NCBI GenBank assembly: GCA_028820995.1
Contig: JAPPHR010000137.1
Location: forward strand, 1-33,207
DNA length: 33,207 nt
Reading direction: 5' to 3'
DNA from: Rhodospirillales bacterium
Lineage (GTDB): Bacteria; Pseudomonadota; Alphaproteobacteria; UBA828
Each line of letters starts with the position of its first letter. Within the stretch, counting starts at the first letter, position 1. The translations under genes and the position numbers were made by a program. Shown piece by piece: positions 9,525 through 33,207 of this stretch. The notes beneath the pieces were generated by a model. It was given only the letters and a program-made list of their open reading frames with translations, searched no databases and was not told the origin of the DNA.

Positions 9525-9564
9525 GAGCCCTGCCCCGCCGCCGGATGGCGCCAGGGCAGGGCTC
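9525..9564. terminator. Bidirectional terminator-like stem-loop between convergent peroxiredoxin and xerC
   Basis: Perfect 11-bp inverted repeat GAGCCCTGCCC (9525-9535) / GGGCAGGGCTC (9554-9564). Confidence 0.65.
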
Positions 9565-10523
9565 TAACCCGCGCGCGGGTGGGCTGCCGTGTAGGCGGCG
9601 AGAAGCCCGGCCTCGTCCACCTCCGTGTAGCGCTGGGTGGTCGAAAGGCTGGCGTGGCCGAGGAGTTCCTGGATCGTGCGCAGATCGCCGCCGCCTGCGA
9701 GCAGGTGGGTGGCGAAGCTGTGTCGCAGCGCGTGCGGCGTCGCCGAGGCAGGCAGACCGAGCGCGCCGCGCAGCCGCGCCATCGTCTGCTGAACCAGGCG
9801 GGGTTGCAGCCGCTTGCCGCGCACGCCGACGAAGAGGGGATCGCCCGGCTCCAGCCGGTGCGGACAGGCGGCGAGGTATTCGGCGACCGCCGCGGCCACG
9901 ACAGGCAGCACCGGAACCACCCTCTGTTTGTTGCCCTTGCCGGTAATCATCAGGCTGTGGACCTTGGCGTCGGCCGCGGGCGCGTCCGCGCGGTCGAGGC
10001 CCAGCGCCTCGCCGATGCGCAAACCGCAGCCGTAGAGCAGCAGCAGCACCGCGGCATCCCGGCGGGCGATCCAGTCGGGCGGGCCGGCGTTCAGTGCCTC
10101 AAGACCCACGACCGCCTTGGCCTGCCCCTCGGTCAGCGGCCGGGGCACGGCGCGCGGCGTGCGTGGCGCCCGCACCAGCGAGAGCGCCGAGGAGACGGGA
10201 ACGCCCTCGCGCTCGAGGTGGCGGAAGAATACCCGAACCGCCGACAGGGCCCGCGCCGTCGAGGTGCGTGCCAGGCCTTCCGCCGCCCGGCGCGCGAGCC
10301 AGGCGCGCAGGTCGCGCACGGTGAGGCTGCCGAGCGCCGCAAGGTCGGGCGCCGCGCCCCGGTGCTCCGCGAGGAAACGCATGAAGTCGTGGAGGTCGCG
10401 CCGGTAGGCGGCGATCGTGTGGTCGGAGCGCCGGCGTTCGTCGGCGAGGCGGGCGAGCCAGGTCTCGACCGCCGTGGCGAGGTCGGCGGCGGCCGGTGTC
10501 GGCCCGCGCGCCGGCGCACTCAT
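9564..10523 (-). CDS. xerC: Tyrosine recombinase XerC
   Basis: R-K-HxLRH-H-Y residues: [68 protein letters not shown]; fused 4-bp stop/start overlap with the upstream gene. Confidence 0.9.
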
Positions 10524-13690: not shown

Positions 13691-14521
13691 ATGATTATCC
13701 AGACGCAGGCTGAGGAGCGGCCGGACGGCGCCCGCTTCGCCATCACCCTCGACGAGCACCTCCAATTGGTGACTCAGTTCGCCGAGAACTTCGGCAACGA
13801 TGACTTCGCGCGGCCGGAGCCCCGTGATTACTTCATTTACGCCTGCCGCTGGCACGACAAGGGCTGGAAGGACCTGGACGACAACCCGCCGCTCGATCCC
13901 AGGACCGGCCTCCCCTACAACCTGGTGGAGACGCCGATCCCCATCATCACGCTGACCGGCTGCCGCTCGCCCGAATACAATGAAGCGCACCACGCCTATT
14001 GCGGGCTGCTGGACAGCATGCACATCTGGGGGCTCTACAACGGGCGCTACGGCCTCTCGGACAAGGTGCTGATCGACATCGTGCCGGAGGAGCACCGCCT
14101 CGCCGCCGACACCATGCTGAACACCGAGCGCCAGCGCCAGGAGCGACTCACCGCCGTGCTGCAGGACGATCCCGATACCGCACCCTGGGTCGAGCACGAG
14201 CGCCTCTTCGCCAACTACAAGGCGCTGCAGTTCTTCGACACCTTCGCCCTCTACTTCAACTGCGTGCACCCGGAAGGGCGCGGCGAGAGCACGTTCGAGA
14301 ACGTGCCGCGCGGCGTCGAAGACGATGTCAGCATCGAGGTGCGCGCGCTGGGCGACGGCGTCTACAGCCTCGACCCCTATCCCTTCCGCGACGACGGGCT
14401 GGAGGTCTCGTTCACCGGCCGCCATCTCGCGCCCTTCGGCATCGACGACAAGCCCGACATGGCCGCGGTGATGCGGGGGACCCCGCGCGAGCGCCAGAGC
14501 GCCCGGCTGGTCGCAGCCTGA
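13691..14521 (+). CDS. DUF3891-like protein
   Basis: MIIQTQAEERPDGARFAITLDEHLQLVTQFAENFGN...YFIYACRWHDKGWKDLDDNPPLDPRTGLPYNL; HD-like HDKGW motif. Start at ATG 13691. Confidence 0.65.
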   Translation: MIIQTQAEERPDGARFAITLDEHLQLVTQFAENFGNDDFARPEPRDYFIYACRWHDKGWKDLDDNPPLDPRTGLPYNLVETPIPIITLTGCRSPEYNEAHHAYCGLLDSMHIWGLYNGRYGLSDKVLIDIVPEEHRLAADTMLNTERQRQERLTAVLQDDPDTAPWVEHERLFANYKALQFFDTFALYFNCVHPEGRGESTFENVPRGVEDDVSIEVRALGDGVYSLDPYPFRDDGLEVSFTGRHLAPFGIDDKPDMAAVMRGTPRERQSARLVAA

Positions 14522-14554: not shown

Positions 14555-15067
14555 GTGCCAGCTTCCGCACGCGCTAGTCCCGTCGAAGTGCTCGGACTGG
14601 ACCATGTCGTGCTCCGGGTCGCCGACATCGACGCCTCGCTGGAGTGGTATCGGCGGGTGCTCGGCTGCACCGTCGAGCGGCGGATCGAGAGCTTCGGGCT
14701 CTACCAGCTGCGCGCAGGCGCGAACCTGATCGATCTCGTCCCCGTGGCCAGCAAGGCCGGCAAGCCGGGCGGCGGCGCACCGGGCAAGACGCGGCGCAAC
14801 ATGGAGCATTTCGCCCTCAAGCTCGCGGCCTTCGACGAGACGAAGCTCCGCCGCTACCTCAAGCGGCGCGGTATAGACGCCGGCGAGACGGCACGGCGCT
14901 ACGGCGCGGACGGCCACGGGCCCTCGCTCTACCTCACGGACCCGGACGGCAACACGGTCGAGCTCAAGGGGCCGCCGGATGCGGACCAGAGCGAGAGGGT
15001 TGCCGACGCCGAGTACCCGGCCCGCTCGCGGAGAAGGGCGGCAGCCAAACGGAGTGTTCAGGCATGA
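14555..15067 (+). CDS. VOC / glyoxalase family protein
   Basis: VLGLDHVVLRVADIDASLEWYRRVLGC..., SLYLTDPDGNTVELKGP; GTG start; 4-bp overlap with the next gene. Confidence 0.88.
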   Translation: MPASARASPVEVLGLDHVVLRVADIDASLEWYRRVLGCTVERRIESFGLYQLRAGANLIDLVPVASKAGKPGGGAPGKTRRNMEHFALKLAAFDETKLRRYLKRRGIDAGETARRYGADGHGPSLYLTDPDGNTVELKGPPDADQSERVADAEYPARSRRRAAAKRSVQA

Positions 15068-16110
15068 AGGCGGTCGTCATTCACCGTCACGGCGGACCGG
15101 AAGAGCTCGTCTACGAAGACATCGAGACTCCGGCGGTCGGGCCCGAGGACGTCCTGATCAACCTCGAGACGGTCGGCCTCAATCACTTCGACCTCGACGT
15201 GTGCGACGGTATTTCGGGCTATCTGAGCCTCGACATGCCGCACATCCTGGGCGTCGAGGGCGCAGGCACGGTCGCCGAAGTGGGTTCCTCGGTGACCGCA
15301 TACCGCCCCGGCGACAGGGTGATGCCCTTCCTCACCATCACGTCGGGCCTCTGCCGGCACAAGGTATGCAACTGCGCGCTGGGAATGGACAACATCTGCC
15401 TCGACTTCGAGAAGCTGGGCGTGACCTGCTGGGGCACCTACGCCGAATACGTGAAGGTCTCGCACCACAACGTGATCCGCATTCCAGACGGCGTTCCGGC
15501 GCTGGATGCGGCGGCGGGCCAGGTCGCCTTCGCCACCGCGTGGGAGCTGGTGGTCAAGAAGGCGCAGGTGCGCCAGGGCGAGGACGTGCTCGTCAACGCC
15601 GCCGGCAGCGGCGTCGGCTCGGCCGCGATCCAGTGTGCTCGCGTGGCCGGCGCGCGGGTGATCGCCACCGCCGGCTCCGACGAGAAGCTCGCGCGCGCCC
15701 GCCAATTGGGCGCCGACGACGTCATCAACTATAACGAGGCCCCGGCGATCGGCGAGGCGGTGCGCGATCTCACCGATGGACGCGGAGTCGATGTCTGTAT
15801 CGAGATGGTGGGCGGATCGGTGCTGCAGCAGAGCCTGGATGCGCTCGCGCTTAACGGGCGGCTGGCCACCTGCGGCGCGCACGCGGGCGAGAAGGTCGAG
15901 ATCGACATGATCGAGTTCTTCCGCAAGCAGATCACGATGACGAGCTGCCATTTCGCGCCCAAGTCCACCAACCACGAGGTCCTGCGCCTGATGGAGCAGG
16001 GCAAGCTGAGACCGGTGATCGGTGAGGTCATGCCGTTGTCCGACATGCGCACCGCACACGAGCGCCTTGCCGATCGCGCCGTCTTCGGCAAGATCGTGCT
16101 TGAGGTATAG
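15064..16110 (+). CDS. Zinc-type alcohol dehydrogenase / quinone oxidoreductase (MDR superfamily)
   Basis: MKAVVIHRHGGPEELVYEDIETPAVGPEDVLI..., HILGVEGAGTVAEVGSSV, VLVNAAGSGVGSAAIQCARVAGARVIATAGSDEKLARARQLGAD. Confidence 0.9.
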   Translation: MKAVVIHRHGGPEELVYEDIETPAVGPEDVLINLETVGLNHFDLDVCDGISGYLSLDMPHILGVEGAGTVAEVGSSVTAYRPGDRVMPFLTITSGLCRHKVCNCALGMDNICLDFEKLGVTCWGTYAEYVKVSHHNVIRIPDGVPALDAAAGQVAFATAWELVVKKAQVRQGEDVLVNAAGSGVGSAAIQCARVAGARVIATAGSDEKLARARQLGADDVINYNEAPAIGEAVRDLTDGRGVDVCIEMVGGSVLQQSLDALALNGRLATCGAHAGEKVEIDMIEFFRKQITMTSCHFAPKSTNHEVLRLMEQGKLRPVIGEVMPLSDMRTAHERLADRAVFGKIVLEV

Positions 16111-16121
16111 CGAGGGAGCGT

Positions 16122-17105
16122 ATGGCCGAACTGGAATTGCGCGAGGTCGACCGCTGGCACCACCGGCGCGTCGTTCTCGACGGACTCAGCTTCAAGGCGC
16201 CGTCAGGGCGCATCACGGCGCTTCTGGGCGACGAGGAGTCGGGGTGCGTGGCGGCGCTCAAGGTCATCGCCGGGATCGAGAAGGCGCAAGGCGGCTCCAT
16301 CCTGATCGACGGCGAGGACGTGGGCCGAGACAAGGAGGGCGTGCGCGAAGCGGCGACGGTGTTCCGCAGCGCAGCCCTGATGCCGCACAAGACGGCTCTC
16401 GAGAACATCGCCTACCCGCTCCGGATCGCGCGCTTCGACCGGCAGACGATCGAGGAACGCGTGCTTGCGGTTGCCGAGCACTTCGGCCTCATGGACGTGC
16501 TGACCGAGCGGCCGAAGAGGCTGACCGACGTTCAGTGCTATCAGATCGGCCTTGCTCGCGCGCTCGTGCGCGACCCTGGGGTCTACCTCTTCGAACTGCC
16601 GCCGGAGGAGGACAGGGGTATCCGCGAGCTCGCGATCAGCGAGATGCAGCGGCTCAGGGACGAGTTCGGCCGCACCGTGGTCTACGCCGCCGGCACCGTC
16701 GAGGCTGTGCGCGACCTGGCCGACTGGGTCGTCGTGCTCCACGAGGGGCGCAGGCTGCAGATGGGACGCCCGGAGCGCATCGCCCAGTGGCCCGCTTCTC
16801 GCCGGGTCGCAAGGCTCTTCGGCGCCAGGCTCCGGGCCGCGCGCGTGAAGGAGAAGGGCAGGGACTCGGTCACGGTCACTCTCAAGGACGGCGCCATCCT
16901 CACGCTCCCCTGCGAGAGCGACGAGGCGGCGGCAGGCGAACGCGCCACCCTCGCCATCTGGCCGGAGCACATCGGCCGTGACGGCGAGAAGGCGGTTTAT
17001 CCGCCCGAGCACTGCTACCTGTTCAGCGAGCGCGGGCACCTGGTGCTGGGGCCGCATGGACTGCCGCCGAAGCCCAAGAAGAAGAGCACCCGCCGCCGTC
17101 GGTGA
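16122..17105 (+). CDS. MalK/UgpC-type ABC ATPase homologue with degenerate catalytic motifs (likely pseudoenzyme)
   Basis: Overall ABC-ATPase architecture with C-terminal TOBE-like region, but Walker A reads GDEESGCVAAL, Q-loop AATVFRS, signature LTDVQ, Walker B YLFELPPEED, H-loop YAAGTVEA. Confidence 0.8.
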   Translation: MAELELREVDRWHHRRVVLDGLSFKAPSGRITALLGDEESGCVAALKVIAGIEKAQGGSILIDGEDVGRDKEGVREAATVFRSAALMPHKTALENIAYPLRIARFDRQTIEERVLAVAEHFGLMDVLTERPKRLTDVQCYQIGLARALVRDPGVYLFELPPEEDRGIRELAISEMQRLRDEFGRTVVYAAGTVEAVRDLADWVVVLHEGRRLQMGRPERIAQWPASRRVARLFGARLRAARVKEKGRDSVTVTLKDGAILTLPCESDEAAAGERATLAIWPEHIGRDGEKAVYPPEHCYLFSERGHLVLGPHGLPPKPKKKSTRRRR

Positions 17106-24235: not shown

Positions 24236-25336
24236 ATGAGCGCGCTCGACGGGTGGATCGACATCTGTCGCGCCGGCATCTGGCGCGACATGCAAGGCCA
24301 CGACGTTCGCCTCGACGAGGATCGGCTGGATCGTATCGTTGCCGCGCACGTTGCCGCCGATCCGGCGCCGGTCGTGATCGGCCATCCCGAAACCGACGCG
24401 CCGGCCTACGCCTGGATCGACGGGCTGCGCCGCATCGGCGATCGGCTGCAGGCGACGCTCCGCGACATCGCTCCCTCCTTCCGCGAGGCGGTGGAGGCGG
24501 GACGCTACAGCGGACGCTCGATCGCTCTCCAGGGCGACACGCTGCGCCACGTCGGATTCCTGGGCGGCCGTGCGCCGGCGGTGCCGGGGCTTGCACCGAC
24601 CCGCTTCTCATCCGCGCCCGAGACGGTGGTCGCCTTCACCAGGGATGGCGAAGGGGAGTCCCCGGACGACTCATCCACGGATGACCCCGACTCTCTCCAT
24701 ACCCCGGGGCGGGGAGAGGCCGGAGAGGAAGACTCCGAGGCCAGCGTTGAGGTCGCAGGCACGGAGAGCCGGGCTGCGGAGCAGCCCGGAGCGAGTGCCC
24801 GGCGACTGAGGGATATAGACGAACAAGAGGCTGCGCTCGCGGTGCGGGAAGAGGCGCTCCTGGCGAGGGAGGCGGCCGCCGCGGCAGACGAGCGCCGGCG
24901 GGCGGCGGAGGCAGCGATTGCCCCCCATGTCGAAGCGGGGCGCGTCCTGCCTGCGGAGCGCGCGGCGCTTGTCGCGCTGTTCGCCGCGCTGGGCGACGAC
25001 TCCGGCAGGGGCGCTGCAGGCGAAAACGCCACCATCGCCTTCGCGTCGGCCTCGGGCGGCGCGGCGCGGATGCTGCCCGCCGCCATTCTGGAACGATTCA
25101 TCGAGGGCCTTCCCAGGCGCGTCGACTACCGGACGCTCGCGGGCCGCCCCGTACCCGGCGCATCGGCGCTTACGGGCACTCATGAAGGTGCGGGTGAGGA
25201 CAGCGAGCGGATCGCTGCCGAGGCCCGCACGTTGATCGCGGCGGAGGCGGAGAAGGGCGTGACCCTTACACCCGCCGAAGCCGTCGACCGGGCGCGCGCG
25301 AAGCGCGGCCTCGGCATCGAAGGAGGAACCCAATGA
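24236..25336 (+). CDS. Phage Mu gpI-like protease/scaffold protein
   Basis: MSALDGWIDICRAGIWRDMQGHDVRLDEDRLDRIVAAHVAADPAPVVIGHPETDAPAYAWIDGLRRIGDRLQATLRDI...; coiled Ala/Glu-rich scaffold-like C-terminus; first gene of capsid block. Confidence 0.75.
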   Translation: MSALDGWIDICRAGIWRDMQGHDVRLDEDRLDRIVAAHVAADPAPVVIGHPETDAPAYAWIDGLRRIGDRLQATLRDIAPSFREAVEAGRYSGRSIALQGDTLRHVGFLGGRAPAVPGLAPTRFSSAPETVVAFTRDGEGESPDDSSTDDPDSLHTPGRGEAGEEDSEASVEVAGTESRAAEQPGASARRLRDIDEQEAALAVREEALLAREAAAAADERRRAAEAAIAPHVEAGRVLPAERAALVALFAALGDDSGRGAAGENATIAFASASGGAARMLPAAILERFIEGLPRRVDYRTLAGRPVPGASALTGTHEGAGEDSERIAAEARTLIAAEAEKGVTLTPAEAVDRARAKRGLGIEGGTQ

Positions 25337-25689
25337 GTCATGTGTTGATGTGGCGAGCGGCGGACGCCGGCGGTGCCGTCGCCTCCCACCGAATCGTCAA
25401 GTACGGCGATGCCGACGGCAAGGTGGTGCAGTCCACCGCGGCAGCGGATGCCCACGTCGGGATCTCCGGCCGGGCGTCGGCGGCCTCGGGCGGTCGCGTC
25501 GAGATCGCCCGCGCCGGCATCGCCGACATCGAATACGGCGGCAACGTCGCGCGTGGCGCGCTGCTGACCGCCGATGGCGACGGCAAGGCGGTGACCGCCG
25601 CCGACGGCAATCGCGTCATCGGCATCGCCGAGGTGTCCGGGGTCTCAGGCGACATCGGCCAGGTGCTGCTCGCGCCCGGCCTTCACTAA
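25333..25689 (+). CDS. Capsid cement / DUF2190-like decoration protein
   Basis: Small protein between gpI-like and capsid gene: RIVKYGDADGKVVQSTAAADAHVGISGRASAASGGRVEIARAGIADIEYGGNVARGALLTADGDGKAV. Confidence 0.6.
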   Translation: MSHVLMWRAADAGGAVASHRIVKYGDADGKVVQSTAAADAHVGISGRASAASGGRVEIARAGIADIEYGGNVARGALLTADGDGKAVTAADGNRVIGIAEVSGVSGDIGQVLLAPGLH

Positions 25690-25699
25690 GGGAAACACC

Positions 25700-26674
25700 A
25701 TGGATCACGAAACCATCCAGCTCGCTTCCGGCCCTTACGAGGTCCAGACCCGGCTCACGCAGATCGCGCAGGCGGCGATGCCGACCGGCCTCATCGCCGA
25801 CGAGGTCTGCCCGCGCGTCCGCACCGGGTATAAGTTCACCTACACGACGCTCACCGAAGAAGACCTGTTGACCATCCCCGACGTGCGGGCTTCCCGCGCC
25901 GGGCGACTCAACCAGGTCGAGTTCGGCGCCACCGACACCACCGCGAGCGTCGTGGATTACGGCCTGGAAGACCCCGTCCCTTCCCGCGACATCGAGGAGG
26001 CGCGTGCCCAGGAGGTCGCCTACGACCCGCTGGAGCAGGCCGCGGTCTCGACCGCCGAGCTGGTGAAGCTCGCCCGCGAGCGGCGTGTCGCCGACCTGGT
26101 GACGACGGCCTCCAACTACACGGCCGGTCATTCCACGACACTCAACGGCAACGCGCAGTGGAGTCACGCCAGCTCGAACCCGCGCAAGGCGATCCTGGAG
26201 GCCCTCGACGTGCCGCTGGTGCGCCCCAACACGCTGGTGTTCGGGCAGAGGGTATGGACCGCGTTGCGTCAGCACCCCAAGATCGTGGAAGCCGTGGCCG
26301 CCACCGGCGCCGGCGATCAGGCCTCCGGCATTGTGATGAAGGAGGCGGTCGCCGAGCTCTTCGAGGTCGAGCGCGTGCTGGTGGGCATGGCCTGGTACCA
26401 GAGCGCCAAGCGCGGCCAGGCCGATAGCTTCGCCCGCCTCTGGGGCAAGCACGCCTGCGCCATCCACGTGCGCCGCGACATGGCCTCCGCACGCGACCGG
26501 ATGCCGAAGTTCTGCTGGACCGCCGATGCCCTCGGCGGGCTGCAGGTCGGCACCTACGAGGAGCCCGGGCGTGGCGTCAATCGCGGCTCGACGGTGGTCA
26601 AGGTCAGCGATTGCGTCAAGGAGCTGGTGGCCTATGGCCGCGCCGGCTACCTCTGGCGCGACGCGGTGGCCTAG
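25700..26674 (+). CDS. Phage major capsid protein
   Basis: 324 aa; TGLIADEVCPRVRTGYKFTYTTLTEEDLL...NQVEFGATDTTASVVDYGLEDPVPSRDIEEA...RRVADLVTTASNY; position after protease and decoration genes. Confidence 0.75.
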   Translation: MDHETIQLASGPYEVQTRLTQIAQAAMPTGLIADEVCPRVRTGYKFTYTTLTEEDLLTIPDVRASRAGRLNQVEFGATDTTASVVDYGLEDPVPSRDIEEARAQEVAYDPLEQAAVSTAELVKLARERRVADLVTTASNYTAGHSTTLNGNAQWSHASSNPRKAILEALDVPLVRPNTLVFGQRVWTALRQHPKIVEAVAATGAGDQASGIVMKEAVAELFEVERVLVGMAWYQSAKRGQADSFARLWGKHACAIHVRRDMASARDRMPKFCWTADALGGLQVGTYEEPGRGVNRGSTVVKVSDCVKELVAYGRAGYLWRDAVA

Positions 26675-26677
26675 CCC

Positions 26678-27667
26678 ATGGCACCGGCTCCTACCGATCA
26701 CCTGTGCGGCCTCGGCTATTCGCCGGCGGACCAGCGCCAAAGCGCGGCCGAGGGCGAGGTCTGCCGGCACGCCGAGCGCCTGCTCAACATGGTCCACGCG
26801 TACTGCGAGATCCGGGATTCGTGGACCGGATGGCTGCGCTCGGGCGCCATGAGCCGCACCCTCTTCGAGCGGATCGTCCCGGAGATGCGCCACCTCCAGG
26901 GCGCCGAGCGGCGGATCGTCGAGGAGCCGAGCGTGACGCTGCTAGCGGTGCTCGACTACGCCGCTCGCGCCCGGACTGCGGTGCCGGCGTACACGCCCCG
27001 CGAGGGCATCGACTACCCGCAGCCGCCCGTCTCGGACGCGGTGCGGGAAGTCTGCGCGCGGATGATCGAGGACGCCGAGCAGGCTGCGCTCGCGGCTCGC
27101 CGGGCGAGCGCCCGCGCCTATGTCGCGCGCATGACCAGTGCGATCGAGCGCGAGCGGAAGGAGGAGGCCCGGCGCCAGAAGGCGATGGCAGAGGCCGGCG
27201 TGACCGAGACGCCGGAGGAGGCCGAGCGGGCGCAAGCCACGATGGAGGCGCGGATCGCGGTCTATGAGCGTGAGATTCGCCGCGTCTACGACGAGGCAAA
27301 CCTCAGCCCGGACGGCACGCCAACGGACGTAGCGAAGCAGGCGCCTGCAGTCGCCGAACGACCGGCCGATGCGGCCGGGCTCACGGTTGACTGGCAAGTC
27401 CACGCGCGCCGATGGGGCAGGACGATCCTGACACCGACGGCGGAGACCGCGCCGGCGTTCGCGCGCCGGCTGGTGTTGGTCGACCGGGGCAAGCGCGGCG
27501 GCGTGCTGCGTGCGTTTGGCGCGTCCGATCTCGTCGACCGCCTCAAGACGATCAACGGCGTTGCCGTTCGTGTGGCCCACCGCCGCCGCGACCGCTACGA
27601 GGCCCCGCTGACGCCCGCTCAAGTCCGGGAGATGCGCGGTCACGCCGAAAGGCGGGCGGCATCATGA
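26678..27667 (+). CDS. Hypothetical phage-block protein (329 aa) with charged coiled-coil-like middle
   Basis: Intact ORF between capsid and gp36-like genes; MTSAIERERKEEARRQKAMAEAGVTETPEEAERAQATMEARIAVYEREIRRVYDEANL. Confidence 0.6.
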   Translation: MAPAPTDHLCGLGYSPADQRQSAAEGEVCRHAERLLNMVHAYCEIRDSWTGWLRSGAMSRTLFERIVPEMRHLQGAERRIVEEPSVTLLAVLDYAARARTAVPAYTPREGIDYPQPPVSDAVREVCARMIEDAEQAALAARRASARAYVARMTSAIERERKEEARRQKAMAEAGVTETPEEAERAQATMEARIAVYEREIRRVYDEANLSPDGTPTDVAKQAPAVAERPADAAGLTVDWQVHARRWGRTILTPTAETAPAFARRLVLVDRGKRGGVLRAFGASDLVDRLKTINGVAVRVAHRRRDRYEAPLTPAQVREMRGHAERRAAS

Positions 27668-28065
27668 CCTACGCAACGCGCGCGGACCTGGAGGCGCGCT
27701 TCGGCGCGGAAGAGGCGTTGGACCTCGCCGGCATGCAGGACGGGCGCATCGAATCCGCGCTCTCGGACGCGGCGGCCGAGATCGACGCGGCGCTCGCCGC
27801 TGCCTATCGCCTGCCGCTCGAGGGCGGCCCCTGGCCGCGGCTCATCGGCGTCGCCTGCGACCTGGCCCGGCGTGCGCTCTATGACGACGTCTCGCCTGCC
27901 GAAGTGAACGCGCGGGCCGAACGGGCGCAGGCGGCGCTGGCTCGCCTCGCCGCCGGCGGCGAAGCGCTCATCGACGACTCCGGCCACCCGGCGCCCCGGC
28001 GCGACACCGCCAAGCGCGCCGGCTCAACGCCCGCGCTTACGCCCGACAGCCTGGCGGGGCTGTGA
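27664..28065 (+). CDS. Mu gp36-like head-tail connector (DUF1320)
   Basis: MTYATRADLEARFGAEEALDLAGMQDGRIESALSDAAAEIDAALAAAYRLPLEGGPWPRLIGVACDLARRALYDD; characteristic DUF1320 N-terminus. Confidence 0.85.
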   Translation: MTYATRADLEARFGAEEALDLAGMQDGRIESALSDAAAEIDAALAAAYRLPLEGGPWPRLIGVACDLARRALYDDVSPAEVNARAERAQAALARLAAGGEALIDDSGHPAPRRDTAKRAGSTPALTPDSLAGL

Positions 28066-28514
28066 TGGCGGGGCAGGGGAGCAGCGTCGTGGTGGATACC
28101 GCGCCGCTCGACGGGGCGCTTGCGCGCCTGGCAGCGGTGCTGTCGCACCCCGATGGCATCATGGATGCGATCGGCAGATACTTGGTCGGCTCCGCGCACC
28201 GGCGCTTCGAGCGCGAGCGCGCGCCGGACGGCACGCCCTGGCTCAAGAGCGCGCGCGCGATTGCCGAGGGCGGCCGAACTCTCACGAATACCGGCCAGCT
28301 GCGTAACTCCATCGCGCACACGGTCACGGACGGCGGTCGCGCGGTCGAGGTGGGGTCGGGCGTCGTCTACGCCGCCATTCACCAGTTCGGCGGCCACGCG
28401 GGCAGGGGACGACGGGCAAGGATTCCGGCGCGCCCCTATCTCGGCGTGGACGAGCACGACCGCGATGCCATCACGCATATCGTTTCGCGCGCGCTGCAGG
28501 GAGCGCGGCCATGA
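28065..28514 (+). CDS. Mu gpG-like virion morphogenesis protein
   Basis: VGSAHRRFERERAPDGTPWLKSARAIAEGGRTLTNTGQLRNSIAHTV...VEVGSGVVYAAIHQFGGHAGRGRRARIPARPYLGV; typical gpG motif. ATG 28065. Confidence 0.88.
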   Translation: MAGQGSSVVVDTAPLDGALARLAAVLSHPDGIMDAIGRYLVGSAHRRFERERAPDGTPWLKSARAIAEGGRTLTNTGQLRNSIAHTVTDGGRAVEVGSGVVYAAIHQFGGHAGRGRRARIPARPYLGVDEHDRDAITHIVSRALQGARP

Positions 28515-28987
28515 CTCTCGCAGCGCTGGAAATGCACCTCGCCGACGCCATGGCGGAGCGGCTCACGGCGCTCAAGACGGACGACGGCGTGCCGGTCTTC
28601 GCCGCCGTTCTCAGCGCGCTCGACACGGCGGCGCTGACGGCCTGGCCCAAGGCTCCGGCAGCCCTGGTGCTGCCGATCTCCGACGAGGCCGAGGGCAGCA
28701 CGACGCGCCGGGTGGAGAGCGCGCCCGTGCAGCACATCGTCCGCGTCGGCGTCTCGGTGATGGTGGCCGCCCCCAACGACCGCGGCGGCGCGCGGGGGCG
28801 GGAGCGGCTCTCCGCCCTGCTCGCCCGCGCCAGGCAGGCGCTCGCCGGCTGGGCACCGCCCAGCCAGCGCGAGGTCCTGTCCTTCCGCCGCGGGCGGCTG
28901 GTCTCGCTGGAGGACGGGCGCCTGCAGTGGCTCGACGAGTACGAGATTCGCCGCGTCGCCCGCGCCGGCGTCGTGGACGTGGAATAG
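28511..28987 (+). CDS. Phage tail terminator-like protein (Mu gp37-like position)
   Basis: 158-aa ORF overlapping gpG-like stop; position immediately before the tail tube gene; ALKTDDGVPVFAAVLSALDTAALTAWPKAPAALVLPISDEA. Confidence 0.6.
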   Translation: MTLAALEMHLADAMAERLTALKTDDGVPVFAAVLSALDTAALTAWPKAPAALVLPISDEAEGSTTRRVESAPVQHIVRVGVSVMVAAPNDRGGARGRERLSALLARARQALAGWAPPSQREVLSFRRGRLVSLEDGRLQWLDEYEIRRVARAGVVDVE

Positions 28988-28999
28988 GGAGACATCCGA

Positions 29000-29890
29000 A
29001 TGACCGCGCGAAGCATCGACAAGCGCACCGACAACATCCTCATCGGCGCCGGCGAAGTCTACCTCGACATCCACGAGGGAGGCGCTGCGACGGGCGAGCG
29101 CTACCTGGGCGATGCCGTGGGGGCGGAGCTGGAGGTCGCGACCGAGGAAACCACGGTCTTCTCCGGCTCGGGCCCCGTCGCGCGCGAGCTTACGCGCATC
29201 GCCCGCAGCGTGACGCGCACCGTGAGGCTCACGCTCCACGACATCAGCTTGGAGAACCTGGCGCTCTTCACGGTGGGCGAGGTGAAACGGCTCGACGCTG
29301 CGGACCACGTCTCGGGCGAGGCCGCCGTTCTGCGACCCGGCCGATGGTATCAGCTCGGCGGGGCCGACCGGCCCGCCGGCGTGCTCAGGCTGGCTGCGCC
29401 GGCCGACAAGGCCGCTGCGATCGCAGCCGTGACCGTCGCCACCACGGCGCAGGCGCCGGTGACGGCGACGCAGGCGATCGCCGCCGGGCAATTCGGGAAC
29501 GCTGCCAGCGAGACCGAGCAGAAGGGCCAGTACGTGGTGGACTATGCCCGCGCCCGCATCTTCTGGCTGCCTCCCGACCACGCGCTCTACGAAGCCAAGG
29601 CCGGCGTCGAAGCCGGCACCGCTCTCGCCGTCGATTACACGCCCGACGATGCGCCGCGGGACCAGGTGCAAGGCGCGTTCCGACAGTTAATCGGCGCCTT
29701 TCGCTACATCGAGGACGCGGCCGAGGGTCAGGGGCGGAACATCTATGCGCCGCGCTGCTCGATCCAGCCGGCCGGCGGGCTGACCCTGCTCGACGGGCGT
29801 TCGTCCGAGCAGCAGATTAGGCTCGCCGTCTCGATGCTGGAGCCGGGCGGCGGCCAACCCGCGCTCTACATCGACGGGCAGGCCGCCTGA
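29000..29890 (+). CDS. Phage major tail tube protein
   Basis: MTARSIDKRTDNILIGAGEVYLDIHEGGAATGERYLGDAVGAELEVATEETTVFSGSGPVARELTRIARSVTRTVRLTLHDISLENLALF. Confidence 0.7.
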   Translation: MTARSIDKRTDNILIGAGEVYLDIHEGGAATGERYLGDAVGAELEVATEETTVFSGSGPVARELTRIARSVTRTVRLTLHDISLENLALFTVGEVKRLDAADHVSGEAAVLRPGRWYQLGGADRPAGVLRLAAPADKAAAIAAVTVATTAQAPVTATQAIAAGQFGNAASETEQKGQYVVDYARARIFWLPPDHALYEAKAGVEAGTALAVDYTPDDAPRDQVQGAFRQLIGAFRYIEDAAEGQGRNIYAPRCSIQPAGGLTLLDGRSSEQQIRLAVSMLEPGGGQPALYIDGQAA

Positions 29891-30570
29891 TGGACAGCTT
29901 ATCCCCCACCTCACCCCGGCCCTCTCCGCCCCCAGGGGCGGAGAGGGAGACCGCGCCGTCAACGCCTGCGTCCCCTCTCCGCCCTTCAGAGGGGAGGAGG
30001 ACAGGGGGTGGGCTTTCGGCCGAGAGCACAGTGGAAGCGGAGAGAGGCCTGCACCACCCAAGCGCCGCCGACCACGAGCTCTCCGTGCTGTTCCCGGATC
30101 GGGATGTGACGGTGTGGGACCCTGACACCGGCGACGCAGTATCGCTCACCGTGCGGGAGTTCTGTTTCCGCGAAGGGCTGGAGGCGACGGCGCTGGCGCG
30201 CCCACTGCTCCAGGCCCTCGCCGCCCTGGTGCCAATCGGGGAAGGCGGCTTGGAGGCCGGGGAGGAGGGGCCGGATGCGCTCGCGATCGAAGGCGCGCTC
30301 GCCGCCCATGCGGCGCTCTGGCTGGAGCTCGCCGCCCGCGCCTGCGGCCGGGACGCGGACTGGCTCGCGCGCCTGAGCGATGCGGACGGGCGCGCGCTCT
30401 CGGAGGCGATGTGGGCCGCGAACGGCGCATTTTTTTTGCGCCGCGTCGTGGCCCAGGTGGCGGCGCGGGCGAAGCGCGAGACGGCGAGTCCGTCGCCCTC
30501 TACCGGGTGCTCGACATCCTCGTCCGCGCCGGCCACGGGCGCGGCCACGTCGAGCTCAGCGAGCGCCTGA
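29890..30570 (+). CDS. Tail-assembly chaperone (frame-0 product; candidate -1 frameshift extends it to 30629)
   Basis: Between tail tube and tape measure; SVLFPDRDVTVWDPDTGDAVSLTVREFCFREGLEATALARPLLQALAALVP; second ORF in the -1 frame (30411..30629) gives ALYRVLDILVRAGHGRGHVELSERLTWRQIVLFYRAATEPMAGE. Confidence 0.6.
   Translation: MDSLSPTSPRPSPPPGAERETAPSTPASPLRPSEGRRTGGGLSAESTVEAERGLHHPSAADHELSVLFPDRDVTVWDPDTGDAVSLTVREFCFREGLEATALARPLLQALAALVPIGEGGLEAGEEGPDALAIEGALAAHAALWLELAARACGRDADWLARLSDADGRALSEAMWAANGAFFLRRVVAQVAARAKRETASPSPSTGCSTSSSAPATGAATSSSASA
29920..29994. repeat. Tandem GC-rich palindromic repeat inside the chaperone ORF
   Basis: CCCTCTCCGCCCC-CA-GGGGCGGAGAGGG (29920-29947), then CCCCTCT...AGAGGGG (29972-29994); CCCTCTCCGCCC occurs twice directly (29920, 29973). 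Confidence 0.75.
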
Positions 30571-30641
30571 CGTGGCGGCAGATCGTCCTCTTCTACCGCG
30601 CGGCCACCGAGCCGATGGCAGGCGAATGAGGGACATGAACA

Positions 30642-31361
30642 TTGCCTACTGATCTGGAACTCGCGCTCCGCGTTCGTGCGGACATGCGAGAGGCGCTCCA
30701 GGGAATCGGCACGCTGAACCGGTCCCTCGGCGATACCGCGCGAAGGGGCGGAGAGGCCGGCGCATCGCTGACGGGCGCAACCGGTGCGGCACAGGCGTTC
30801 AGCGTGGCGCTCGGCGCCTTAGGCCGCGAGAGCGGGAGCACCCTCGGCCAGGCCAGAGACGCGGCCGAGACGGTCTTCGGTGCCATGGAGTCGGCGCTCC
30901 AGCGGTTCGTCACCACGGGGAGCGTCTCGTTTTCCAGCTTCGCCGATTCCGTGATCGCGGATCTCGCGCGCATCGCCGCGCGCCGCTACATCACGGGGCC
31001 GCTGGCCGATCTGCTGTTCGGCGGCTTCCTCGGCGGCGCGTCGCCTGGCTCCGCCCGCCTGTTCCACGCCGGCGGCACGGTCGGCGCGTTGGGCGGCGTC
31101 ACACGCAACGCCGGCCTGCGCGCGGACGAGGTGCCGATCGTCGCGCAGCGCGGCGAGACTATCCTGCCGCGCGGCGCGCAGATCGTCGCCCCTTCGATCC
31201 ATGTCAATTTCGAGAATCGCGGCACACCGCAGCGCGAGGTGAGCCGCGAGGTGCGCCTCGATCCGCGCGGCCTCGTGGTCTCGATCGTCACCGACGACAT
31301 CCGGCGCGGCGGGCCGATCCGCCAGACCATGCAACGCGAGCTCGGGCGAGGGCTCTCATGA
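30642..31361 (+). CDS. Short phage tail tape-measure protein
   Basis: TTG start with GAGGGA upstream; RADMREALQGIGTLNRSLGDTARRGGEAG...SFSSFADSVIADLARIAARRYITGPLADLLFGGFLGG...FHAGGTVGALGGV...VPIVAQRGETILPRGAQI, typical tape-measure C-terminal motifs. Confidence 0.75.
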   Translation: MPTDLELALRVRADMREALQGIGTLNRSLGDTARRGGEAGASLTGATGAAQAFSVALGALGRESGSTLGQARDAAETVFGAMESALQRFVTTGSVSFSSFADSVIADLARIAARRYITGPLADLLFGGFLGGASPGSARLFHAGGTVGALGGVTRNAGLRADEVPIVAQRGETILPRGAQIVAPSIHVNFENRGTPQREVSREVRLDPRGLVVSIVTDDIRRGGPIRQTMQRELGRGLS

Positions 31362-31726
31362 GTGCGCTGGTCTGGCCTTCCTACGCAGCGGTCGAGGCGG
31401 ACGGCTATGCCGTCTCCGACGATACCGATGTTCAACGGACGCCCTTCGACGACGGGCTGGTGCGTCAGGAGCGGCGCTATTCGAGCGCGCTGACGGCGCT
31501 GTCGATCACCGCCCTGCTCGCAAACGACACCGACTATCGGCGCTTCCGCGCCTGGGCCGGCGACTGCGCGCACCGCTGGTTCGCGTGGACCGCGCCGGAG
31601 AGCGGCCAGGTGCACCAGGTGCGCGTGCGCGGCGGCGCGGGCGGCATCGATTACACGGCGCGCATTGGCCCGGACGGCCGGCGCTCGTGGGAGGCGACCC
31701 TCGATCTTGAGGGCGTCGGGCTCTAG
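31358..31726 (+). CDS. Phage tail protein (distal/minor), unknown family
   Basis: 122-aa ORF with 4-bp overlap to tape measure: VWPSYAAVEADGYAVSDDTDVQRTPFDDGLVRQERRYSSALTALSITALLANDTDYRRFRAWAGDCAHRWFAW. Confidence 0.55.
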   Translation: MSALVWPSYAAVEADGYAVSDDTDVQRTPFDDGLVRQERRYSSALTALSITALLANDTDYRRFRAWAGDCAHRWFAWTAPESGQVHQVRVRGGAGGIDYTARIGPDGRRSWEATLDLEGVGL

Positions 31727-31744
31727 CGAACGAAAGGACTCACC

Positions 31745-32137
31745 ATGCCGATTACAGCGGCCGAGCAGAACCGGGCGGTGCTCGCCATCGCGGGTGCCGG
31801 CGACGATTACCTGGCCCTCGCCACCGCCGACCCGACGGCGGCGGGCAACAACCTGATCGCTGCCGCCGGCCGGGCCGAGCTCGACCTCGGCCGCGAGAAC
31901 GCCGACCCTGCGGGCGCAGTGAAGAACCTGGCGGCGGTGGACTTCGCGCCGACGGCGCTGGTCGAGAACGCCACGCACTTCGCCATCATGACGGCTGCGG
32001 GCGGCGGCGCTGTGCGCGCCTGGGGCCGGCTGGTGGACGATCAGGGCCAGGACGCAACGGTCAGCCAACAGTCCACCGACGACATCCTCCGGGTGCCCGC
32101 CGGCGCCGTCGTGATCCGCATTCCCTCGGGCGCCTAG
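31745..32137 (+). CDS. Hypothetical phage tail-region protein
   Basis: 130-aa ORF with RBS AAAGGA; MPITAAEQNRAVLAIAGAGDDYLALATADPTAAGNNLIAAAGRAELDLG... Confidence 0.55.
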   Translation: MPITAAEQNRAVLAIAGAGDDYLALATADPTAAGNNLIAAAGRAELDLGRENADPAGAVKNLAAVDFAPTALVENATHFAIMTAAGGGAVRAWGRLVDDQGQDATVSQQSTDDILRVPAGAVVIRIPSGA

Positions 32138-32164
32138 AGACGAGCCGGCGGCGGCGGGGGTTCG

Positions 32165-33207
32165 ATGACTCGGCAGGTCCTGGAGCTCACCGGACTCGGC
32201 GGCGAGGGCTGGCGCGGCGCCGAGCTGATCGATCCTGCGCTGATCGCGGGCAGCGGGACCGCCTACCTGCGCCGGGTGCGCCGAAACGGCAACAGCCTGC
32301 AAGTGCGGCTCTCGGCGACGGCCGACGACCGGCCCGAAGATGCCGGGCCGGAGTTCTCGACCGCGCTCGAGACCTCGGCGCGCGCCTTCACCTTCACCGA
32401 CGGCGCGGACACCCTCGTGCTGAAAGGCCCCGGCCACGAGGACAACACCTTCGCCGACGAGACGGAGCCCTACTTCTGGACTCCCGGCAACACCGCCGAA
32501 TTCACGGCGTGGTTCGGAAGCACGCGTCAAGACTTCACCCTCACCCTCGACGACGGCGTGCTCGAACATACGGTGCGCGGCGGGGCTGCGGCCGGCGCGC
32601 CGGAGGCCCGTGCCCGCGTCGACGTGATCCTGCCGCTCGGCCTCGCCGACTTTGACGCGGAGGGGCTCCAGGTCGACGTTCTGGCGCTGATCCGCGCCGG
32701 TGCCGGCCCGGCGGGCACCGTCTATGCCGCGCCGCCGCGCGGCAGCGTGGGCGCGCTGGTGGACGGTGAGCTCGGCCTCGGCGCCGGCGACGCACCGATC
32801 ACTCGCATCCGGCGGCGCAACGGCAACATGCTCCTCATCAACGACGACGATCCGCTTTCGCTTGCCGGCTATTTCAACCCCGGCGGACCCGGGGCCGATC
32901 TCACGCTTCATATTCGGACCCGCGCCGGCGCGGCCTCGCTTCCCGTGATCGAGCACGGCCGCGAGGGCAGCGACTTTATCCAGTTCGGCCCACTCGGCAC
33001 CGATCTCCAGGCTCTCCTCGACGGCATCGGCAACGGCGATCTCTTCATTTTCGCGCTGGCGCGCCCGGCGGCGATCACGGTGCGGGGCGCAGCCGAAGCC
33101 GGCGCGGCCGAAGCGGTGGCCCGCGTGCTGCGCGTCACGCCGCCCATCCGCACGGTCCGGGGCACCGCTACCGCCGGCGAGGCCGAGGCCGGCCGCACCT
33201 GGCTGCT
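32165..33207 (+). CDS. Repeat-containing phage tail-tip/fibre-like protein (partial, runs off window)
   Basis: Open frame from ATG 32165 to window end; recurring TVRGxAxAGxxEA motif (TVRGGAAAGAPEARARV, TVRGAAEAGAAEAVARV, TVRGTATAGEAEAGRTW). Confidence 0.55.
   Translation, partial: MTRQVLELTGLGGEGWRGAELIDPALIAGSGTAYLRRVRRNGNSLQVRLSATADDRPEDAGPEFSTALETSARAFTFTDGADTLVLKGPGHEDNTFADETEPYFWTPGNTAEFTAWFGSTRQDFTLTLDDGVLEHTVRGGAAAGAPEARARVDVILPLGLADFDAEGLQVDVLALIRAGAGPAGTVYAAPPRGSVGALVDGELGLGAGDAPITRIRRRNGNMLLINDDDPLSLAGYFNPGGPGADLTLHIRTRAGAASLPVIEHGREGSDFIQFGPLGTDLQALLDGIGNGDLFIFALARPAAITVRGAAEAGAAEAVARVLRVTPPIRTVRGTATAGEAEAGRTWL

Follow-up and report, generated by a model that had tools for sequence, protein, structure and literature searches.

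The window analyzed here, a 33,207-nt stretch of DNA from a Rhodospirillales bacterium, encodes an ABC cassette protein of the MalK/UgpC family (327 aa, 16122..17105, + strand) that is in all probability a retained, catalytically dead pseudo-ATPase. This reading draws on an open reading frame, homology, orthologues, dN/dS and a fold match. Comparison of the orthologous sequences points to purifying selection on the protein across a bacterial family, and it would serve there as a non-hydrolyzing structural or regulatory subunit. The best explanation overall, tentative as it is, would place this non-hydrolyzing subunit in the position of a nucleotide-binding subunit on an importer permease of the same catabolic regulon.

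The gene and its orthologues

The reading frame opens with an ATG at 16122 on the + strand and runs to 17105, the last base of its stop codon. A ribosome-binding-like AGGG (16113-16116) lies 5 nt upstream of the start, and the gap from the stop of the preceding alcohol dehydrogenase (ADH) gene to the start measures 11 nt. The GC content at the third codon position is 0.89 and the frame is coding according to a codon-usage model. The homology to ABC ATPases is certain: the protein matches Pfam ABC_tran with 57 bits and NCBIfam UgpC with 153 bits over residues 1-287, and the PDB matches are AlgS and MalK (E 1e-35 to 1e-33). All NCBIfam scores lie far below the curated cut-offs (UgpC 153 against 432 bits, MalK 139 against 568 bits, PotA 125-131 against 356-482 bits).

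Orthologues without stops are present in all congeneric genomes (7/7, 68-88% identity). The public records of this genus (g1, the genus of the window) include the MAGs RHO3_bin_58 and RHO3_bin_80, labelled Rhodospirillales. Within the GTDB family the gene is single-copy in 16 of 21 genomes, with G020 counted among the genomes without it, although its contig stops inside the neighboring ADH gene and a real absence is unproven. The family members score 350-512 bits against a clade profile, while the next best sequences, intact paralogues, do not exceed 289 bits. Open frames were found in 15 separately assembled genomes, the MAGs analyzed being 62-100% complete. Neither the cassette gene nor the DUF3891 gene that opens its operon was found in G015 (98% complete).

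No member was detected outside the family among 385 class-level genomes, a search in which five candidates per genome were scored and which rare distant members could escape. The sole extra-family match at E <= 1e-88, in G297, carries intact motifs. In a plasmid search the best matches did not exceed about 35% identity, and the annotated ones were UgpC or other ABC ATPases. A viral-contig scan matched two loci, both of them canonical ABC ATPases. In a FastTree phylogeny that included intact paralogues, largely drawn from this family, the sequences form one clade with a support of 1.0; the tree is midpoint-rooted and the branch of this clade is long, and its sister group is therefore uncertain. 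A second, partly deviant ATPase type was observed among the paralogues (L068, L069 and L070 in G011, G014 and G020), in which Walker A and B are intact, the Q-loop Gln has been substituted by Asp (IFDNL) and the H-loop His by Pro (ATPDYTEA).

Loss of the ATP-site motifs

The former motifs were located by alignment, all on the + strand. At the former Walker A (residues 36-44, 16227..16253) the canonical GPSGCGKST has become GDEESGCVA, with Lys42 substituted by Cys. The former Q-loop Gln (residue 82, 16365..16367) is an Arg. The former signature (residues 134-138, 16521..16535) reads LTDVQ instead of LSGGQ, the former Walker B (residues 155-160, 16584..16601) YLFELP instead of FLFDEP, and the former H-loop (residues 189-192, 16686..16697) AAGT instead of VTHD. 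Overall, the Walker A Lys, the Q-loop Gln, the signature glycines, the Walker B Asp-Glu and the H-loop His have all been replaced. The P-loop glycines G36 and G41 survive, as does D164 of the D-loop, which is shorter than the canonical one.

An earlier note on this DNA had described the uninterrupted 327-aa ORF at 16122-17105 and listed its motif substitutions, all of which are exact. Its phrase that every catalytic motif is erased holds for the key residues and goes too far for G36, G41 and D164. The likeness to MalK/UgpC that it had seen along the whole length is borne out by the UgpC match over residues 1-287 and by the predicted MalK fold, except that the D-loop spacing is not fully kept.

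The losses are concentrated. Reference columns were taken to be those with conservation in 80% or more of 61 intact paralogues. Of the 25 that fall within Walker A, the signature, Walker B, the D-loop or the H-loop, the protein retains 7, and of the 39 in the remaining cassette regions compared it retains 26 (Fisher P = 0.004, the division into these two groups being the analyst's own choice). Walker A keeps 2/7 columns, the signature 1/5 and the H-loop 0/5. In contrast, the helical subdomain on the permease-docking side (residues 84-133, 16371..16520, + strand) has mostly canonical columns, 8/9 being kept.

In all 15 family sequences with complete motifs, three residues are gone: the catalytic Glu, the His of the H-loop and the first Gly of the signature. 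Their substitutes vary: L/A/P/R for the Glu, G/D/E/N/S/A for the His and D/A/E for the Gly. Genera g3 and g6 retain Lys42, and g3 alone also retains Gln82. The regulatory domain has its second half in g6 and g3 and lacks it in g1 and g2. Since the survival of these elements differs by genus, the motif loss appears to be stepwise and lineage-specific, atop a shared core of losses.

It could be imagined that the former nucleotide pocket has been repurposed to hold another ligand of the pathway, giving the protein a sensor role. The replaced motifs are for the most part fixed within genus g1 (GD[ED][ED]SG, R82, YLFELP), with no drift, which speaks for such a role. However, the replacements differ between genera (QAV, DRA and ELP at Walker B), so that the clade as a whole shares no one new pocket, and this role is improbable.

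The earlier note had also considered a heterodimer in which the protein would be the inert half. In such an importer ATPase, an intact MalK-type partner encoded elsewhere would hydrolyze ATP, as in RbsA/NupO or Pdr5. Degenerate nucleotide-binding halves are indeed common in ABC transporters (PMC7756269, PMC11466899), ATPase-less importers exist, and each of the two genomes scanned holds about 100 ABC cassette matches. A single ATP site is composed of Walker A, Walker B and the A-, Q- and H-loops of one subunit together with the signature contributed by its partner (PMC7756269). Pdr5 has its losses within one such composite site (PMC7756269), whereas the chain described here loses Walker A, Q-loop, Walker B and H-loop as well as its signature. 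With both its own-site motifs and its signature lost, a heterodimer containing this chain would have no complete ATP site; the protein should therefore not be the silent half of a working dimer, unlike Pdr5 or, so far as they are described, RbsA/NupO. Moreover, its gene is not paired with an intact MalK-type ATPase gene, and no second one was found in its operon or in related operons. The inert-half proposal is thereby weakened and has become unlikely, if slightly less so than the repurposed pocket.

Predicted fold and selection

The AlphaFold2 model of the protein has a pLDDT of 84.7 and a pTM of 0.82, from a shallow input alignment of 9 sequences. The top Foldseek ranks are MalK chains of the E. 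coli maltose transporter (3rlf/2r6g), with a TM of about 0.81 by query length. The MalK fold is thus predicted to be retained. In that fold, the helical subdomain contains the cleft where the coupling helices of MalF and MalG dock (PMC3150292, PMC7658222).

The alignment and the strands of the model place a shortened OB/TOBE-like C-terminal domain at residues 236-310 (16827..17051, + strand), which corresponds to the MalK regulatory domain minus its second half. The TOBE-like C-terminus of the earlier note is accordingly half correct: the regulatory domain has its first half and lacks its second, and no TOBE domain is among the Pfam matches. The strongly basic C-terminus that it had noticed is the tail PKPKKKSTRRRR (17067..17102, + strand), read from the sequence; its end is of low confidence in the model. 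All members of the genus have such a basic tail.

Between congeneric genomes, dN/dS (Nei-Gojobori) ranges from 0.12 to 0.39 in the pairs listed, with a median of 0.33 over all pairs and a value of 0.22 for the window and its closest relative (G000-G007). This median is the highest among the nine genes compared, the other eight lying at 0.07-0.26. By these values the constraint on the cassette protein is clear, though weaker than on the neighboring genes. Within the genus, conservation is 0.82 for the replaced motif columns and 0.78 for the rest of the cassette (permutation P 0.20). The replaced columns are neither relaxed nor newly constrained; their conservation equals that of the remaining cassette. 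The OB region at the C-terminus is the least conserved part (0.72).

A pseudogene, a decaying gene or an assembly artefact was considered and ruled out by the stop-free orthologues, the low dN/dS and the losses common to several genera. Decay would fit the highest dN/dS of nine genes, but this value is far below 1, no stop interrupts the frame in 15 genomes, each assembled separately, and the model confidently predicts a MalK fold; such an origin is extremely improbable. The earlier note had argued for a retained pseudoenzyme rather than decay and had suggested orthologues, dN/dS and structure as checks. All three agree with it: open orthologues share the key losses in genus and family, none with intact motifs was found, dN/dS is not near 1, and the predicted structure matches an ABC fold.

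Operon and catabolic linkage

The cassette gene is the last of a compact operon on the + strand. This module opens with a DUF3891 protein (13691..14521; Pfam DUF3891 E 3e-33), followed by a VOC/glyoxalase-fold protein (14588..15067, alternative start 14555; Pfam Glyoxalase) and a zinc-binding ADH (15064..16110; Pfam ADH_N/ADH_zinc_N), which overlaps the VOC gene by 4 nt. All three assignments are also backed by synteny, and the alcohol dehydrogenase and VOC neighbors named in the earlier note were identified correctly. DUF3891 is rare, with close homologues in 10 of the 385 class-level genomes searched, and the collection of papers searched contained none on it.

The DUF3891-VOC-ADH-cassette order is syntenic throughout g1. 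In g6 and g3 the corresponding DUF3891-(VOC)-ADH-cassette module lies within or adjoins a larger catabolic cluster with genes for BKACE, GATase, SMP-30, acyl-CoA dehydrogenase, enoyl-CoA hydratase, AMP ligase or thiolase; the genes of these related loci were called with a simple codon model. In g2 a VOC-cassette pair adjoins genes for GATase, SMP-30, thiolase, hydratase and acyl-CoA dehydrogenase, as well as what appear, by eye, to be CoxLMS-type molybdenum hydroxylase subunit genes. In g1 itself the GATase and SMP-30 genes sit at a separate locus. The GATase gene is present in 15 of 16 genomes with the cassette gene and in 1 of 5 without it (P 0.004, a comparison confounded by phylogeny). In G011, VOC-ADH occurs without the cassette gene and is followed by PhyH and a nitrilase-like gene.

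Two further features of the window were observed. Downstream of the metabolic genes, positions 24236-33207 carry phage-like head and tail genes with PHROGs matches to a head maturation protease, a major head protein, a portal-like protein, a major tail protein and a tape-measure protein, which may represent a prophage or a gene transfer agent. At 9564-10523 (- strand), a tyrosine recombinase (Phage_integrase with a SAM-like N-terminal domain) adjoins a transaldolase-like gene.

The operon context suits a soluble scaffold or regulator. MalK binds the transcription factor MalT via the MalK C-terminal domain. In a similar way, the dead cassette would stay off the membrane and bind ADH, VOC, DUF3891 or a transcription factor. 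The close linkage of its gene to those of soluble enzymes (a VOC/ADH overlap of 4 nt, an 11-nt gap), the persistence of this linkage when the module relocates, the phylogenetic profile matching that of the pathway GATase, the basic tail throughout the genus and the lack of an identified importer permease or SBP beside the gene all speak for such a role. On the other hand, the permease-cleft columns of the helical subdomain are preferentially kept, conservation is lowest in the OB region at the C-terminus, and VOC-ADH exists without the cassette gene in G011. A soluble scaffold is a possible but doubtful reading. Similarly doubtful is a broader formulation in which, across a family of Alphaproteobacteria, a free-standing ABC cassette would have moved wholly outside ATP chemistry and taken on a dedicated non-catalytic task, regulating the catabolic regulon or acting as its scaffold, perhaps linking the pathway to an ATPase-less importer.

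A candidate permease partner

No permease or SBP was identified among the window ORFs scanned or beside the cassette gene in the related loci read. The observation in the earlier note that none is adjacent holds for these loci, while ATPase-less importers are encoded elsewhere in several of the same genomes. An ordinary importer operon severed by a contig end was rejected, as the gene is mid-contig in most genomes and its neighbors are conserved.

A permease-against-ATPase survey covered G008 (100% complete). On the contig of the cassette gene it revealed one SBP-permease-permease set without a neighboring ATPase, consisting of a binding protein and PotB/PotC-like permeases (L153, G008:C22, 7170-10319). 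The set is conserved in several genera (also L181, L183, L184 and L185): orthologues at about 69% are present in five g1 genomes and in G009, and a near-identical set in G016. No adjacent ATPase is seen in the orthologous sets where flanks are present, whereas several paralogues of the set (about 50%) carry an ATPase directly upstream. Relatives of its PhyH gene occur in G019 on the contig of the cassette gene and in G011 immediately after VOC-ADH. The set shares a contig with the cassette gene in G008 and G016.

ATPase-less sets were found in 8 genomes, and 8/8 have the cassette gene. This association is not significant alone (Fisher P = 0.11) and is confounded by phylogeny. The search for a permease lacking its own ATPase, proposed in the earlier note, has thus yielded a candidate in G008 and its relatives, with an association of that strength. 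The importer was not found in G013 (98% complete) or in genus g6, both of which have the cassette gene, and it therefore cannot be the only partner. As a partner the ATPase-less importer is suggestive.

Docking to a permease was ranked first because the cleft of the helical subdomain is preserved, with the soluble scaffold or regulator close behind. The cassette protein would occupy the nucleotide-binding-subunit position on an importer permease, contacting it through the retained coupling-helix cleft. The docked importer, for which the PotBC-like SBP/permease set is a candidate, would feed the same catabolic regulon as the operon, and the cassette protein may hold or gate the permease without powering it. 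Several observations weigh against this: the gene has no neighboring permease or binding protein of this type of transporter at any locus read, orphan importers may use shared intact ATPases, the helical-subdomain residues may be kept for folding alone, and the MalK regulatory domain is shortened. The top-ranking dN/dS among nine genes also counts against the overall explanation. Action by docking is itself slightly less probable than that explanation and is favored with reserve.

Relation to known ABC transporters

The closest known relatives are MalK and UgpC, the ATPase subunits of type I (CUT1) sugar importers and the best NCBIfam matches. The protein shares their fold, with the cassette and the first part of the regulatory domain, and keeps the permease-docking columns. 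Unlike them, it has lost the ATPase motifs, its regulatory domain is shortened, its operon holds no permease or SBP, and its scores remain under the cut-offs.

Most known dead cassettes form one half of a functional transporter, in which an intact partner preserves one of the ATP sites. The degenerate half of RbsA/NupO likewise lacks the Walker A Lys (in NupO also the Walker B acids) and has a deviant signature (PMC11466899). The dead half there is part of a fusion with a second transporter half, whereas the protein described here is free-standing, in an operon without partner or permease. Site 1 of Pdr5 shows the same Lys to Cys substitution in Walker A and has also lost the Walker B Glu and the H-loop His (PMC7756269). 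However, the deviant signature of Pdr5 (LNVEQ) is on the other cassette and one full site survives (PMC7756269), while here all losses are in one chain. Heterodimeric importer ATPases such as DppD/DppF combine two different subunits in one importer with functional asymmetry (PMC12136057). Both of these subunits bind nucleotide in the full transporter and neither is dead (PMC12136057), unlike the present case.

The collection of papers searched contained none on a "pseudoATPase" importer subunit. Fold and family are already known; what is new, judged from the genomes compared, is a free-standing, wholly dead member that is kept across a bacterial family. Both its own site and the signature for the site of a partner are gone. 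The graded loss among its relatives, with Lys42 in g3 and g6 and Gln82 in g3, makes the route from a motor to a non-motor protein readable from living lineages.
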